In this document: in pieces, positions 39,132 to 44,843 of the stretch | How the letters are laid out: each line of letters starts with the position of its first letter | How positions within the stretch are numbered: the first letter of the stretch is position 1 | NCBI RefSeq assembly: GCF_000211475.1 | Contig: NC_015474.1 | Span: 186,001-250,000, forward strand | From: Pyrococcus sp. NA2 | Lineage (GTDB): Archaea; Methanobacteriota_B; Thermococci; Thermococcales; Thermococcaceae | DNA length: 64,000 nucleotides | Direction of reading: 5' to 3' | Translations under genes and position numbers: made by a program | The notes under the pieces: generated by a model | Database searches by the model: none | What the model saw: the letters and a program-made list of their open reading frames with translations, nothing else | What the model was told of the DNA's origin: nothing

Positions 39132-40220
39132 CTAAATCTTAGGTTTCCTCCCTTTTTCTCCCCTTTGCCTGTACACGTACTTCAGCATCTCCTTTGCTTT
39201 CCTTATATAGTCCATTGCAGTTGATATGTCTCCACGTCTTAGCGCCTCTTCAGCTTTTGATATTAACTCCCTGACTTGTCTAACGTTCACTCCCTGGGAT
39301 TCAAGCCTCATGACAAGCATTTTTAAGAATCTCAGCTGCATCTGAACCTCAAGCCTTGGTGGAAGCTTTAATCCTGGTCTTAGGAGTAATCCCATGCTTA
39401 TTATCCTCTCAGCCTGCAATCTAGCAAGATTGGCATAGTTGTAGGCCCTAAGGTAGTTTCCATGAGAATAAGCATCCTTTGCCATGTTCAACAACCTCGT
39501 GGCACTCTCCAGCATGTTTCCCACGTGAAATCTAGTTAACTCAATAACCCTCTTGGCCCTTTCTATTGCCACTTCTGCTCTTTCAATGGCATCTTTTGCA
39601 ACATCAGCCGTTATATTTGCCCTTACTATCACAGGATTTGGGATCCTGAGTTTCCTTAGAATGTTAATCGAAAGTGGAGTTTCCACTATAATCACTTTAT
39701 CATTCCAGGTGATTGGAATTTTAGTTGAATTCCTGGAGACGTATACTGGTATTACATTTTGCTTTCTCATCAGCTTCCTCAGTTCCAAAATACCTGCGAG
39801 ATCCCATCCATAGACGACGGCAAGTTTCACATCTTTAAATAATCCTGGATAGTCCTTCTTTATAAACTCTAAAACGGCAAGTGCTGTTTCCACTCTAGTC
39901 TCTCCCCACTTCCTCGTGTATGGAATTCCGAGTGCTTGAAGGTCAGACTCATATTGGGGATTAACTGCCTTTGGACCCCCTATGATCAAGACGAGAGATG
40001 GATTTCTGTTGATAATCTCAACGCTAATGCTCTCATTATAGATTCCCCATGGTGTCACTACAACCTCCGCTTTCAACAACTCTCCAATCTTTTCCGCTAA
40101 AGTTAGATCTGCCTCATTATCACTTACTAGGATGATGATGTTCTTCACTTGAGCCTCTGAATTTGGTATGCCTGTGGACAATATGAGAAAAGAAATTAAG
40201 AGGGGGAGGAATTTTTTCAT
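39132..40220 (-). CDS. Exported protein with cell-wall-binding-like N-terminus (paralogue B)
   Basis: 362 residues. A signal peptide (MKKFLPLLISFLILS, cleavage likely after SEA) is followed by a domain with VSDNEADLTLAEKIG and LVLIIGGPKAVN. This resembles the putative cell wall-binding repeat 2 domains, which detect named loci and numbered attempts. The second half is helical, with heptad-like Ala/Glu/Arg spacing (VAKDAIERAEVAIERAKR). It overlaps paralogue A by 4 bp. Probably surface-located; function unknown. Confidence 0.7.
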   Translation of the reverse strand: MKKFLPLLISFLILSTGIPNSEAQVKNIIILVSDNEADLTLAEKIGELLKAEVVVTPWGIYNESISVEIINRNPSLVLIIGGPKAVNPQYESDLQALGIPYTRKWGETRVETALAVLEFIKKDYPGLFKDVKLAVVYGWDLAGILELRKLMRKQNVIPVYVSRNSTKIPITWNDKVIIVETPLSINILRKLRIPNPVIVRANITADVAKDAIERAEVAIERAKRVIELTRFHVGNMLESATRLLNMAKDAYSHGNYLRAYNYANLARLQAERIISMGLLLRPGLKLPPRLEVQMQLRFLKMLVMRLESQGVNVRQVRELISKAEEALRRGDISTAMDYIRKAKEMLKYVYRQRGEKGRKPKI

Positions 40221-41305
40221 CTCCTTCCACCTCTTTCATGGAACTCCCTAATTATCCTCCTTAACTCTTTGTGGATTCCTATTATTAAGATCTTCGCAAC
40301 CCTAATGTTGCCATGGTCTAGCGCAACTTTTGCCTCTTTTAGCAACTTCTCCTCAAGTGAAACATCAATTCCTTTAGCCTTGAGTCTGTTCAACACCCTT
40401 TCAAGGATCCTTAATTCAATTCTTAGCCTTATGGTTTCTCTATTTATCTTCTTCTGAACGTTTTCAGTCGCTGATCTTATGATAATCTCAGCTATGCTCT
40501 TAGATGCTGTAGCAAGTCCAAACGCTGCTCCGTATTTGCCCTCTTCATACTTCTCCTTGGCAAGTCTCAACTTCTCTTCAGCATTCTTGAGTAATATCTT
40601 TGCATTCGGAAGTGTCGAGTTCTGAACTAATTCTTTTGCAATTTCCACTCTCTCCTCTGCAATCTTTATGGCCCTCTCTGCCATTTCCGCAGTTACGTTT
40701 ACGTTGACTTCAATTGTCCTGTTTCCAAGCCTTTCCCTTAGTCTCTCCATGATTTTCTCAGCGTACCTACTCCTTATGATCTTGATTTTTCTGAACTTTC
40801 CTATGTCCACCGTTGCATTTTTGACTATTAAAGGTACTATCCCCTTCTCCTTCATTGCCTCCATTAGTGCTGGGTAATCCCATCCGTGTACAACGACTAT
40901 GGTCACGTTCTCTAGTATCTTTGGAAACCTATCTTGAAGTATTTCAAATACCTTCCTACAAGTATCGGCCCTGTCAACACCGTTTGCCCAGAGAACTGTA
41001 ATGTTAAAGTCTTTAAGCATGTCATAGTACATCCTTGGAACCGCTACAGGCCCTCCTATTATTATTACAAGGTCTGGACTCATGTTCAAAATCTCCTCTA
41101 GTACGCTCTCGTTATACACTCCCCACTTAGTGACGACTAGAGTTGCATTAATTACTCCCGCAACTTTCTGGGCTAATGTTAGGTCTGCCTCATTATCACT
41201 ACTAAGTATAACTATTGAGCCCTGTTCCTGCGCCGTCACTTCCTGTATTCCTGCAAGGCTAAACACCATCAATAGGGTTGTCAGTAGGCCCAACAACCTT
41301 CTCAT
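40217..41305 (-). CDS. Exported protein with cell-wall-binding-like N-terminus (paralogue A)
   Basis: 362 residues from the ATG at 41305, with GGTGA 5 nt upstream. Signal peptide MRRLLGLLTTLLMVFSLAG, then SSDNEADLTLAQKV and LVIIIGGPVAVP, matching paralogue B block for block. A coiled, charged helical C-terminal half follows. Same length and architecture as the next gene, so the two arose by tandem duplication and are translated as a coupled pair. Confidence 0.7.
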   Translation of the reverse strand: MRRLLGLLTTLLMVFSLAGIQEVTAQEQGSIVILSSDNEADLTLAQKVAGVINATLVVTKWGVYNESVLEEILNMSPDLVIIIGGPVAVPRMYYDMLKDFNITVLWANGVDRADTCRKVFEILQDRFPKILENVTIVVVHGWDYPALMEAMKEKGIVPLIVKNATVDIGKFRKIKIIRSRYAEKIMERLRERLGNRTIEVNVNVTAEMAERAIKIAEERVEIAKELVQNSTLPNAKILLKNAEEKLRLAKEKYEEGKYGAAFGLATASKSIAEIIIRSATENVQKKINRETIRLRIELRILERVLNRLKAKGIDVSLEEKLLKEAKVALDHGNIRVAKILIIGIHKELRRIIREFHERGGRR

Positions 41306-41417
41306 GGCCATCACCATTATACAATAGAACTTGATCGATAAAAGGAATCTCGCGTTTCTAAATTGTTCCTAGGTGTTTCTAATCAGCCCAATAAAACAAA
41401 AAATGTTTCCAAAGGGG

Positions 41418-42548
41418 TTAAACAACCTTAACAAGCTTTTCGGCCCAGGGAGAGACTCTAACCCTGATGTAACCCCTGAATTTTTCATCAACTTCCTTAT
41501 CGCCTGTGTACACCCTAACATAGCCATCTTTAACCTTAGAAGATGTTGCCACAACTATTATGTCATCCTTGCTTACCTTCCTAAGCACCTCTGGGGAGAA
41601 TTGCTGATTGCCCCTCCCGAATAGGAAGTTAAGTCCACCAATTATCGTTACCACAACCTTCGGTCTCTTGTCTAGGAACTTTAAGAGATCCCTTTCGCTG
41701 GCATCTTTCACGAGTAGCTTTGCCTTGCCATCCTTGATTTCAACTATATCAACCCCAAGCAACGTTCCATTGATGCCAAGCTTGTCTTTTATCCTCTTAA
41801 TTGTTGAACCAGCTCCCAGGAAGTAAATTCCCTCCTCCTCAAGTAGCTCTTCAACAACGGCCTCAGCTATAGCCTCGAGCTCAGCTTCCTCGTCAAGTCT
41901 AACTGCCTCCTTACTTCCCTGGACGAGTTCTTCAACAACAGGAGTTAAAGCTTCAAAGAATTTCCTAGCCCTAACTTCGTCCCTTCTATATGCATTCTCA
42001 TCCAAATCCATTACAGGTCTTTCCTCAACTTTCGCATTTCCCCTCAAAAATTCAACGAGGACTTTTGCCGCGTTCTCTGGCGATGTTGCAAAGACTCCAG
42101 AAAACATCTTAACTCCAGTTGGTATTCCCAAGATGGGAACCTTCTTGTCAATTACTTCCGCAATGTCCCTAGCTGTTCCGTCACCTCCAGCAAATACTAT
42201 TAGATCAACATTCCCCAACATCTCCCTTGCCAAAGTCTTGGTATCTTCAGCGGATGTGTCTGGAATCTTGACACCATATACCTCCCTATACTTTATCTCC
42301 CTGTGCTTGATTACCTCGTATGGAAACTTTGATCTCTTCAAAGGCTCTTCCCCTAAAGGGCCCGGACCTGTTAGGAATGTTACATTAACGTCATAAGCCT
42401 CAAGCTCCTTGAGAAATAACTCAACCAACCCAGGGGTCACTGGCCTGGCTCCCCTCTTTATTGCCTCTTCAACTACGCCATCGGTACCTTTTAGGGCAAC
42501 CCTACCTCCCATTCCAGCAATTGGATTAACTATCAATCCAATCTTCAA
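41418..42548 (-). CDS. ATP-NAD/AcoX-kinase-like protein
   Basis: 376 residues from a TTG at 42548 (LKIGLIVNPIAGMGG), with GGTGA 5 nt upstream; a GTG three codons earlier lies within that site. The NAD-kinase-type motif FAGGDGTARDI (about residue 115) and GIPTGVKMFSGVFA are present, followed by a long acidic helical insert (about 185-230). COG3199-type family. It may phosphorylate NAD or a related diacylglycerol-like substrate; not resolvable. It overlaps nothing but follows the channel gene by a few bases. Confidence 0.78.
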   Translation of the reverse strand: MKIGLIVNPIAGMGGRVALKGTDGVVEEAIKRGARPVTPGLVELFLKELEAYDVNVTFLTGPGPLGEEPLKRSKFPYEVIKHREIKYREVYGVKIPDTSAEDTKTLAREMLGNVDLIVFAGGDGTARDIAEVIDKKVPILGIPTGVKMFSGVFATSPENAAKVLVEFLRGNAKVEERPVMDLDENAYRRDEVRARKFFEALTPVVEELVQGSKEAVRLDEEAELEAIAEAVVEELLEEEGIYFLGAGSTIKRIKDKLGINGTLLGVDIVEIKDGKAKLLVKDASERDLLKFLDKRPKVVVTIIGGLNFLFGRGNQQFSPEVLRKVSKDDIIVVATSSKVKDGYVRVYTGDKEVDEKFRGYIRVRVSPWAEKLVKVV

Positions 42549-42553
42549 TTTTA

Positions 42554-43999
42554 TCACCTCATATACTTTCTAGCAAATACTGTTAAGAACACGGCCCACA
42601 TGAACATTCCAAATATTGCCTCAACGGAAGCAATCACCTTCCCGATTCCCACTGGGTGCAGGTCACCATAACCGAGAGTGGTAGCTGTGACTATGCTAAA
42701 GTATACGTAATCAAGCGGAGAACTAATTGGAATAACGCTCTTTGTTATGGCATAGAGGAGTGGAAATCCAAAGATAACAAGGCTTATCCAGAGGAATACC
42801 GGTCTCTTCCAGTCGGTTCCATACTTACACGTTAAATCAGCAAAGAGAAATTCAAAGAGAACTTCCAAAAGTTTGATAGTCTTTTTAATGGTCTTTGGTC
42901 CCCTTTTGTAATGCTGGATTACCCTCTTACGCCTAGCTGTCATCTCCAAGTAATAGTACTCATCAGCATTCTCCTTGTCACCACTCTCCTCCCATGTTGT
43001 CCTCGCTATCCTGTAGAAGACCTCGGCTAGGTATGGGTTGTTGAAGTGACAATTTTGTATGACTATGAAACCATAAACATTTAACTCGGCTAGTATGTTG
43101 GGTAGGTACGTTAAATTCCAATTTTCGTCGCTATAGAGCCTCGAATTCCTCAGCACTAGGTTGTTGTGAATCACAACGTGGATGAATTCTGGATACAAAA
43201 CTCTACTGTTAGTTATCTCAACGTGTCCAGGAATTGAAACACCTTCAAGCGTTAGCTGGCCTGAAAATGCGTTTATGAATATTCTGACCTGTCTCTTAAA
43301 TCTCGGACTCTCATCAAACTTTATTCCCGTGATATTCAGGTTATGAACCCTCACAGGCTTTTTCTTATCAAGAGGTAGCTTGATGCCTAATTCTTCAGCA
43401 ATCCTACGCATTAATGGATATTTAGAGTTAAGGGCTATTCTTCTCACATCCCTCAAGTTAGAAAGCTCTATCCTCCCTGCCATTCTTCCTCTTTCTCCAA
43501 ACTCCTCCTCTGTGGTTACCTCTTTTGGAGAGAACTCCGTGGAATTTATCATGATGTATCTAATACTAGAATCCCTAATCAATATTGCTGAGCTGAAGTT
43601 CACGGAACACAAGCTGATTCCATAGGCGCTACCTCCCGTGACGTATACGGAATCCACCTCAGAATCAACTAGGATAAATGAATCGATTGTCGTATTTATC
43701 AGTGCCACATTTTTTATCTTTGAAGTGGCAATTATGAGCCTCCTTATAGTCGAATTCCTGAAGACAAGGGCCTCTTTAATATCTTTATTTTTTATTATAA
43801 CGTCATAAAGCTGAACCCCTTCAAAGCTTCTAACACCTCTCTCTATAGCCCTCTCAAAGGCCCTCCTCTTTATCTCCTTTATCTTTTCACCATAGAGTAG
43901 CTCTCCCTCTTCAAAGGGTATGTGGAGTGAACAGTACTTTGATCCCTTTAGGGGCTTTCTCTTGCACTTTCTACCATTGGAATAAATATATTCACACAC
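42554..43999 (-). CDS. Two-TM potassium-channel protein with Cys/His knuckle and repeat domain
   Basis: 481 residues in three parts. Residues 1-26 form a C-x9-C-x10-C-x2-H cluster (C2, C12, C23, H26), likely zinc-binding. Residues about 60-330 show short repeating beta-type segments (VFRNSTIRRLII, ALINTTIDSFIL, VIHNNLVLRNS), like a pentapeptide or other beta-helix. The last 85 residues have two hydrophobic helices around a pore loop with TTLGYGDLHPVG, the K+ selectivity filter. Probably a K+ channel with a large cytoplasmic sensor. Its start overlaps the TrkA-C gene by 8 bp. Confidence 0.8.
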   Translation of the reverse strand: MCEYIYSNGRKCKRKPLKGSKYCSLHIPFEEGELLYGEKIKEIKRRAFERAIERGVRSFEGVQLYDVIIKNKDIKEALVFRNSTIRRLIIATSKIKNVALINTTIDSFILVDSEVDSVYVTGGSAYGISLCSVNFSSAILIRDSSIRYIMINSTEFSPKEVTTEEEFGERGRMAGRIELSNLRDVRRIALNSKYPLMRRIAEELGIKLPLDKKKPVRVHNLNITGIKFDESPRFKRQVRIFINAFSGQLTLEGVSIPGHVEITNSRVLYPEFIHVVIHNNLVLRNSRLYSDENWNLTYLPNILAELNVYGFIVIQNCHFNNPYLAEVFYRIARTTWEESGDKENADEYYYLEMTARRKRVIQHYKRGPKTIKKTIKLLEVLFEFLFADLTCKYGTDWKRPVFLWISLVIFGFPLLYAITKSVIPISSPLDYVYFSIVTATTLGYGDLHPVGIGKVIASVEAIFGMFMWAVFLTVFARKYMR

Positions 44000-44771
44000 T
44001 TATTCCAGCCTCCCTCTCTTCCTGGGCTCTCCTTACCTTTGCCATCTCCATTGCTTCCACGTGTTCTCTCTCACCTTTAGCACCCCTTAACCTTTTTGAC
44101 AGTGACGCTAACACACTCTCAGGCCCATACAATATCACCTCATCACCCGGCAATATTCTGGTGCTACCATGGGGAGCTCCAAGGTAGACTTTCTTCCCAT
44201 TAACCTCTCTATAAATCCCTAGAACTAGGACACCTTCCTTATCCAGTTGTAATTCCCTTAGCGTCTTATCGGCAAGCCAACTTCTCCTTTTAACTTTTAT
44301 TTGAGCTATCGAGTATCCCCTTGTTATTCCAAGCAATTGAGAGTAATCTATAATCCTAAGGGAGGGCGCAAGCCTAGACAATGCTCTCCTAATTGCCTTT
44401 CTCATTATTCTCTCAATGAACTTAGACCTGAAAAATAAGTAAAGAGCTATTAGACCAATTACTAGCACAATTATCCTATAACCAGCCTCTTCTCTTGTCG
44501 TCCCAACGAAGCTGAGGACTAATGTTGCTATAGCTGAAGTTATCCCACCACTTCCCAGGAGCATCAGGAACCTTATTATCCTTCTCCTTACGGGATGGGA
44601 AACAACATATTCACTTTCGCTAGTTGTGAAACCAACCCCAGAAAATGCCGACTGTGCTTGAAATGCGGCAACATCTTTGGACAATCCAGTCATTTCTAGT
44701 GCTACGGCCCCTATTCTAACTATTATTGCAGAGATTAGGACCACGAGGAGGAAGGTTATTATTGGGATCAC
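43992..44771 (-). CDS. Membrane protein with TrkA-C domain
   Basis: 259 residues. Three hydrophobic segments (about 3-22, 66-90, 98-114). Between the first two lies QAQSAFSGVGFTTSESE, which resembles a TrkH/KtrB-type pore loop. The C-terminal half is a TrkA-C (RCK-C) ligand-binding domain: SIAQIKVKRRSWLADKTLREL as IAQIKVKRRSW, GVLVLGIYRE and ILPGDEVILYG. It probably senses a nucleotide or ion and acts with the overlapping channel gene in K+ handling. Confidence 0.72.
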   Translation of the reverse strand: MIPIITFLLVVLISAIIVRIGAVALEMTGLSKDVAAFQAQSAFSGVGFTTSESEYVVSHPVRRRIIRFLMLLGSGGITSAIATLVLSFVGTTREEAGYRIIVLVIGLIALYLFFRSKFIERIMRKAIRRALSRLAPSLRIIDYSQLLGITRGYSIAQIKVKRRSWLADKTLRELQLDKEGVLVLGIYREVNGKKVYLGAPHGSTRILPGDEVILYGPESVLASLSKRLRGAKGEREHVEAMEMAKVRRAQEEREAGISV

Positions 44772-44843
44772 ATTAAGTTATGTGTAGAATGTTATTTTAT
44801 AAGCTTGACCAAAATATTTTTATCTTTATTAACATCCTTTGCC

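Follow-up and report, generated by a model that had tools for sequence, protein, structure and literature searches.

A predicted K+ channel with a beta-helix-like domain and its conserved NAD-kinase-like gene partner in Thermococcaceae

What might control a potassium channel that carries a large sensor-like domain in a hyperthermophilic archaeon, and which of its neighbouring genes is its true partner? The question arises from a locus of Pyrococcus sp. NA2, whose genome is a single contig of 1.86 Mb, within a stretch of 64,000 nucleotides that we call here the window. Three genes follow each other in series on its minus strand, all of them with a GTG start codon and with successive overlaps of 8 and 4 nt: the first (43992..44771) encodes a 259-aa membrane protein with a TrkA-C domain, the second (42554..43999) a predicted K+ channel of 481 aa, and the third (41418..42557) a NAD-kinase-like protein of 379 aa. 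An initial annotation of this DNA had paired the first two genes; both are present as described, with their 8-nt overlap, and the third overlapping gene had been left out. A TATA-box-like CTTATAAAA (44795..44803, minus strand), recognised by reading the sequence and by pattern matching ~28 nt ahead of where the first gene starts, is a possible promoter of the three-gene operon. Such matches are frequent by chance (a mean of 3.9 per 4.4 kb in shuffled sequences), and therefore constitute weak promoter evidence. Scans for sigma-70 promoters and terminators were uninformative, the host being an archaeon. Following the operon, two adjacent secreted-looking proteins (window 39132-41317) occur in the examined loci of one genus (designated here g1, with the other genera numbered likewise), the first of them showing weak cell-wall-binding (CWB2) similarity.

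The C-terminal part of the channel protein (residues 372-481; 42557..42886, minus strand) comprises a pre-TM helix, TM1, a pore helix, a TTLGYGD filter and TM2. Pfam Ion_trans_2 matches residues 405-479 with an E-value of 8.5e-14, and Pfam, alignment and an AF2 model all recover the two TM helices, pore helix and T-x-G-Y-G filter of Ion_trans_2 channels, the modelled helices spanning residues 371-392, 398-419, 429-441 and 452-479. A sequence search of solved structures with the channel as query returned K+ pores only. The protein would conduct K+ and, judging from its pore family, is presumably a tetramer. At the opposite end, a head of the form C2-x9-C12-x10-C23-x2-H26 (43922..43999, minus strand) is seen in the orthologue alignment, in paralogues and in an Aeromonas relative. 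The four putative zinc ligands of the head (C2, C12, C23 and H26) and the TTLGYGD motif are invariant in an alignment of 24 orthologues, 23 of them 51-81% identical to the window protein, which confirms the head and pore noticed initially; a segment around ADLTCKYGT before TM1 is likewise invariant or nearly so. The head gives sub-threshold matches to zf-C3Hc3H and HGG_STG, and its residue pattern suggests that it may bind zinc. Its original label of zinc knuckle strictly denotes a CCHC motif with other spacing, so that CCCH zinc-binding-like head is a better name. When the 61 remaining long frames with an ATG start were scanned across the window for a relaxed CCCH pattern, none matched; the scan also missed the channel's own head, because it took ATG starts and the gene begins with GTG.

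Between head and pore lies a predicted beta-helix (residues 58-320, interrupted at ~160-215; 43040..43828, minus strand), indicated by AF2, sequence periodicity and Foldseek, and a helical hairpin (residues 322-365; 42905..43036, minus strand) connects this putative sensor to the pore. The AF2 model (mean pLDDT 84) shows a solenoid of ~8-residue strands, one per 10 residues from position 58 to 152, with more strands up to 315 and a low-confidence insertion near residues 162-170. Moreover, hydrophobicity periods of 10 and 5 were detected in residues 58-155, at strengths reached by 1 and 9 of 2000 shuffles, respectively. On both grounds, the short beta repeats pointed out in the initial annotation are real. 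No Pfam pentapeptide model matches the channel at E<=10 and its repeats are therefore divergent; a profile search meant to tell pentapeptide from other beta-helix repeats thus gave no pentapeptide match, and it is the predicted structure that resembles pentapeptide-repeat proteins. The best Foldseek match is the pentapeptide-repeat protein HetL (3du1, E 4.6e-4), followed by HalA, designed repeat solenoids, other pentapeptide proteins and KirBac pores. TM-scores of 0.24-0.45 among these top matches are low, which makes the likeness, itself to a predicted structure only, one of architecture and fold class and not of close relationship. In two-helix K+ channels both the N- and C-termini are cytosolic, and the 370-residue front part of the protein would consequently face the cytosol, in support of the original idea of a sensor-like cytosolic domain set on a K+ pore.

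The product of the upstream gene is modelled by AF2 as TM1 (residues 2-26), a half helix (32-44) with a GVGFTT loop, TM2 (60-88), TM3 (93-115) and an RCK-C domain, the latter matched by Pfam TrkA_C at residues 156-228 (E 4e-12). The model has a pLDDT of 85 and a pTM of 0.55, a value that leaves the relative placement of the domains uncertain. Residues R19, G21, G47-T50, E52, E54, P60, R62 and R63 are invariant in 25 sequences with identities down to 33%. When aligned by hhalign with the TrkH of the same archaeal family, its two best alignments fell exactly on TrkH P-loops 3 and 1, with a score of 25.1 as against a mean of 15.0 (s.d. 3.1, maximum 25.4) when columns were shuffled 150 times. A TrkH-like loop is plausible from these alignments; no Pfam TrkH match occurs in the 259-aa protein, and one M1-P-M2-like unit is seen in its model. 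The gene had been read as a TrkH-like pore-loop segment combined with an RCK-C domain, of which the second element is now backed by Pfam and the first has modest support, its score lying just within the range of the shuffles. The RCK-C part and MthK accounted for the best Foldseek matches, and a direct comparison of the membrane part with the pore of the window channel found nothing. A full TrkH is encoded elsewhere in all 61 genomes tested, the source genome included, so that these cells do not rely on the TrkA-C protein alone for taking up K+. The TrkA-C family (window 43992-44771 and loci L081-L120) spans Thermoproteota, Thermoplasmatota, a methanogen and some bacteria, and is possibly a single-repeat relative of TrkH with a fused RCK-C; should that single repeat be real, the protein might represent the TrkH pore in a simple form resembling its ancestor. 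One copy (G068:C41:4347-5109) looks broken, with internal stops and a split match.

Which of the two neighbours belongs with the channel was addressed by a gene-order survey of 94 Thermococcaceae genomes, where the channel is present in 80, the NAD-kinase-like gene in 91 and the TrkA-C gene in 32. The TrkA-C gene directly precedes the channel in 8 of the 9 genomes of g1 and in all 7 of g5, that is, in 15 genomes of two genera. This adjacency, the overlap of both genes in the window and the K+-pore-like segments of both proteins would suit a single ligand-gated K+ control complex made of channel and TrkA-C protein, a reading that we judge improbable in view of the remaining genomes: TrkA-C is missing from most of the genomes that have the channel, 11 genomes of g3 carry the two genes at separate places, and in two genomes of g2 (G002 and G003) TrkA-C stands directly before the NAD-kinase-like gene in the absence of the channel. 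Furthermore, in 40 homologue loci of other than Thermococci type, several of them on short contigs, no channel adjoins the gene. The TrkA-C homologues of Desulfurococcales, Thermoplasmata, Methanolobus and a few bacteria are not found beside such channels, and their common Pfam-annotated neighbours in other archaea reveal no K+ theme. The proposal of a conserved channel and TrkA-C unit is not supported by this comparison, since adjacency is confined to those 15 genomes, and the two genes rarely co-occur beyond the two genera, an outcome that the initial annotation had itself named as damaging. On the basis of gene order across genomes we reject TrkA-C as the conserved channel partner.

The situation on the other side of the channel is very different. 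In 76 of the 80 genomes that have it, the channel is followed on the same strand by the NAD-kinase-like gene at a gap of -1 to 64 nt; among the four exceptions, one falls at a contig edge (G082), one belongs to an incomplete assembly (G045), and two look genuine, with the genes apart (G001 and G093). The pair is kept across four genera (g1, g3, g4 and g5) at ~50-58% channel identity, with upstream neighbours that vary (TrkA-C, a radical-SAM-type protein, a disulfide-reductase-type protein, a 138-aa protein or none) and with both outer flanks rearranged between genera. The conserved partner of the channel is the NAD-kinase-like gene and not TrkA-C, and the pair is a feature of Thermococcaceae: in the other archaea examined, none of the NAD-kinase-like homologues adjoins such a channel, and homologues are also found on bacterial and haloarchaeal plasmids. 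The enzyme seems to have work of its own, because its gene is retained in 11 of the 14 genomes without the channel, a few of which are incomplete. In one of these, G072 (L132, C1:732767-732823), an intact NAD-kinase-like gene is closely preceded by 19 residues left over from the last helix of the channel, which points to channel loss. The enzyme gene could then be a mere stable operon neighbour of a beta-helix-gated channel, devoted to an unrelated task and held in place by shared transcription or translational coupling. That 11 genomes have it without the channel, and that no such channel adjoins it in the other archaea examined, would agree with such an arrangement, which we regard as possible though less likely than a functional link, given that the pair persists across four genera while its two outer flanks have been rearranged. 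As a side observation, a conserved protein of ~302 aa that Pfam does not recognise is encoded after the NAD-kinase-like gene in many genomes (L054:7821-8729, L042:8924-9838, L048:7008-7922), and directly after the channel in G001, where the NAD-kinase-like gene sits elsewhere.

The NAD-kinase-like protein itself gives Pfam matches to NAD_kinase (4.4e-23) and NAD_kinase_C (1.7e-16), both far above cut-off, and a GGDGT motif is invariant in 17 of its orthologues; both domains and the motif place it in the NAD kinase superfamily. A separate, canonical NAD kinase that scores above the curated cut-off is encoded in the same genome (1364846-1365676). Sequence searches found no solved relative of the NAD-kinase-like protein.

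HalA is the only characterised channel of such an architecture that we found. It is described as the ion channel of the Hailong anti-phage system (Tan et al. 2025, Nature 643:794; PMC13275509, PMC12657230), in which, according to PMC12657230 and PMC13275509, which cite Tan et al. 2025, single-stranded DNA made by HalB keeps the HalA effector inactive. Foldseek aligns the window channel with HalA bound to oligo-dA (9nyi_A) with E 7.1e-4, probability 1.00 and TM-scores of 0.31/0.43, over 403 columns that cover most of the length of HalA (target 333 aa) at ~10% identity. The crown-plus-ion-channel architecture of HalA is thus recovered in the window channel, at low TM-scores. The NCBIfam HalA model NF051894 matches residues 328-480, a region that starts within the hairpin and takes in the pore, with E-values of 0.002 and 7e-4; it reaches up to 1.4e-18 in sister channels, where the score includes repeat similarity. 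The curated HalA cut-off of 250 bits is not attained by the window channel (17-18 bits) nor by any protein of the 94 genomes. The repeat region had been expected to lose its novelty if it were a known channel domain with an established function, and HalA does provide a characterised structural relative with a gating function, albeit a distant match. The HalA-like architecture, the weak profile similarity and the constant enzyme-gene partner might even suggest a Hailong-type anti-virus effector held shut by an enzyme-made signal. This we consider highly improbable: the channel is a near-universal core gene with a conserved neighbour, when defence genes are usually patchy, its partner belongs to the NAD kinase superfamily, and PADLOC gave no significant match. 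No nucleotidyltransferase, whether HalB or another, adjoins the window channel, whose neighbours are the TrkA-C and NAD-kinase-like proteins, and it is this absence together with the core status of the gene that led us to set a defence role aside.

The anatomy of the channel, its predicted fold class, its conservation and its gene pairing are established here, and on them we build a model to which we assign a probability of about 0.5, namely a beta-helix-gated tetrameric K+ channel functionally linked to the NAD-kinase-like enzyme. Four copies of the 42554-43999 product would assemble into a K+ channel with two helices per subunit; the large N-terminal part, in the cytosol, would fold as a beta-helix of the pentapeptide type and bear a CCCH zinc site at its tip. 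By analogy with oligo-dA in HalA, the helical hairpin would relay the binding of a ligand or partner at the beta-helix 'crown' to the inner pore helix, and K+ flux would be set in this way. In Thermococcaceae the channel would act with the product of the next gene downstream, the NAD-kinase-like enzyme, whose most likely role is to produce, consume or report the nucleotide or phosphorylation state by which the channel is gated. As the only conserved neighbour is nucleotide-kinase-like, a nucleotide, polyphosphate or the enzyme itself would be the prime suspect as gating ligand. The TrkA-C protein would be a separate K+-handling protein, combining one TrkH-like pore repeat with an RCK-C domain for a ligand, and found in the operon only in two genera. 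A more specific version, in which a housekeeping Hailong-like logic has the NAD-kinase-like enzyme make or consume the nucleotide (or polyphosphate) ligand of the crown, with K+ flux tracking nucleotide state in hyperthermophilic archaea, seems to us unlikely as it stands. If HalA does have a near-universal relative outside defence, accompanied by a constant enzyme, this would point to crown-gated K+ channels as a class of sensors of general scope, and structural studies would gain a heat-stable protein in the Thermococcaceae channel. The link to the channel would also be the first functional lead for an uncharacterised NAD-kinase-like family, and the interest of the locus would rise if the enzyme proves to control gating.

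The window channel is not alone in its class. Thermococcaceae genomes carry extra channels with the same C-terminal half, several of which start with the same kind of CCCH head, such as MRCTYEYRHSIKECPREALEGLPYCIFH, and these CCCH-headed sister channels match both Pfam Pentapeptide (E down to 1.9e-75) and Ion_trans_2. An Aeromonas relative has the head MCRYLVADGRHCTEEAGDHDLCRWH, and haloarchaeal relatives are annotated either as 'potassium channel family protein' or as 'pentapeptide repeat-containing protein'. The window channel thus belongs to a widespread class with CCCH head, predicted beta-helix, hairpin and K+ pore, within which its repeats are divergent. In the literature searched we found no function for pentapeptide-repeat K+ channels, and no paper on this channel or on its pairing with a NAD-kinase-like gene; the word 'channel' is absent from a review of pentapeptide proteins (PMC8145042). 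The earlier impression that no such system had been described agrees with this search, which returned no described function for the exact gene set. The extra pentapeptide-type K+ channels of other Thermococcaceae (L126:2866-5764 in G074, L128:2130-3254 in G029, L124:3868-5850 in G060 and L130:1048-3717 in G022) measure 370-890 aa, have Cys/His heads and vary mainly in the length and type of their repeats; some form tandem pairs (G074), and a DUF6036 nucleotidyltransferase-like gene lies near one such paralogue (L125:2448-3170, G074).

Altogether, the three proteins can be set against four known systems. The TrkA-C protein would share with TrkH/KtrB an M1-P-M2-like unit, whose SAFSGVGFTT may correspond to the TrkH P-loops, and has an RCK-C in addition; it contains one such unit where TrkH has four repeats, and, in contrast to TrkH/KtrB working with TrkA/RCK, its RCK-C is fused to the membrane part without the RCK-N half. 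The NAD-kinase-like protein has both Pfam domains of the proteins annotated as 'ATP-NAD kinase family protein', but is a second, divergent member beside the canonical enzyme. The pentapeptide-repeat K+ channels of haloarchaea and bacteria (Pentapeptide plus Ion_trans_2) have, like the window channel, a hairpin, a C-terminal T-x-GYGD pore and, in several cases, a CCCH head, whereas the window channel has repeats too divergent for any Pfam pentapeptide model and constitutes a distinct Thermococcaceae orthologous group paired with a NAD-kinase-like enzyme. Finally, its similarity to HalA is distant: both proteins have an N-terminal domain that aligns with the beta-helix and is joined by helices to a two-helix pore, but the window channel is a near-universal core gene, its partner is a NAD-kinase-like enzyme instead of the HalB nucleotidyltransferase, and it carries a CCCH head, the head of HalA itself falling outside this comparison. 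What both channels may have in common is the way in which they are opened and closed, with a ligand on the crown setting the gating of the window channel in the manner of oligo-dA on HalA.
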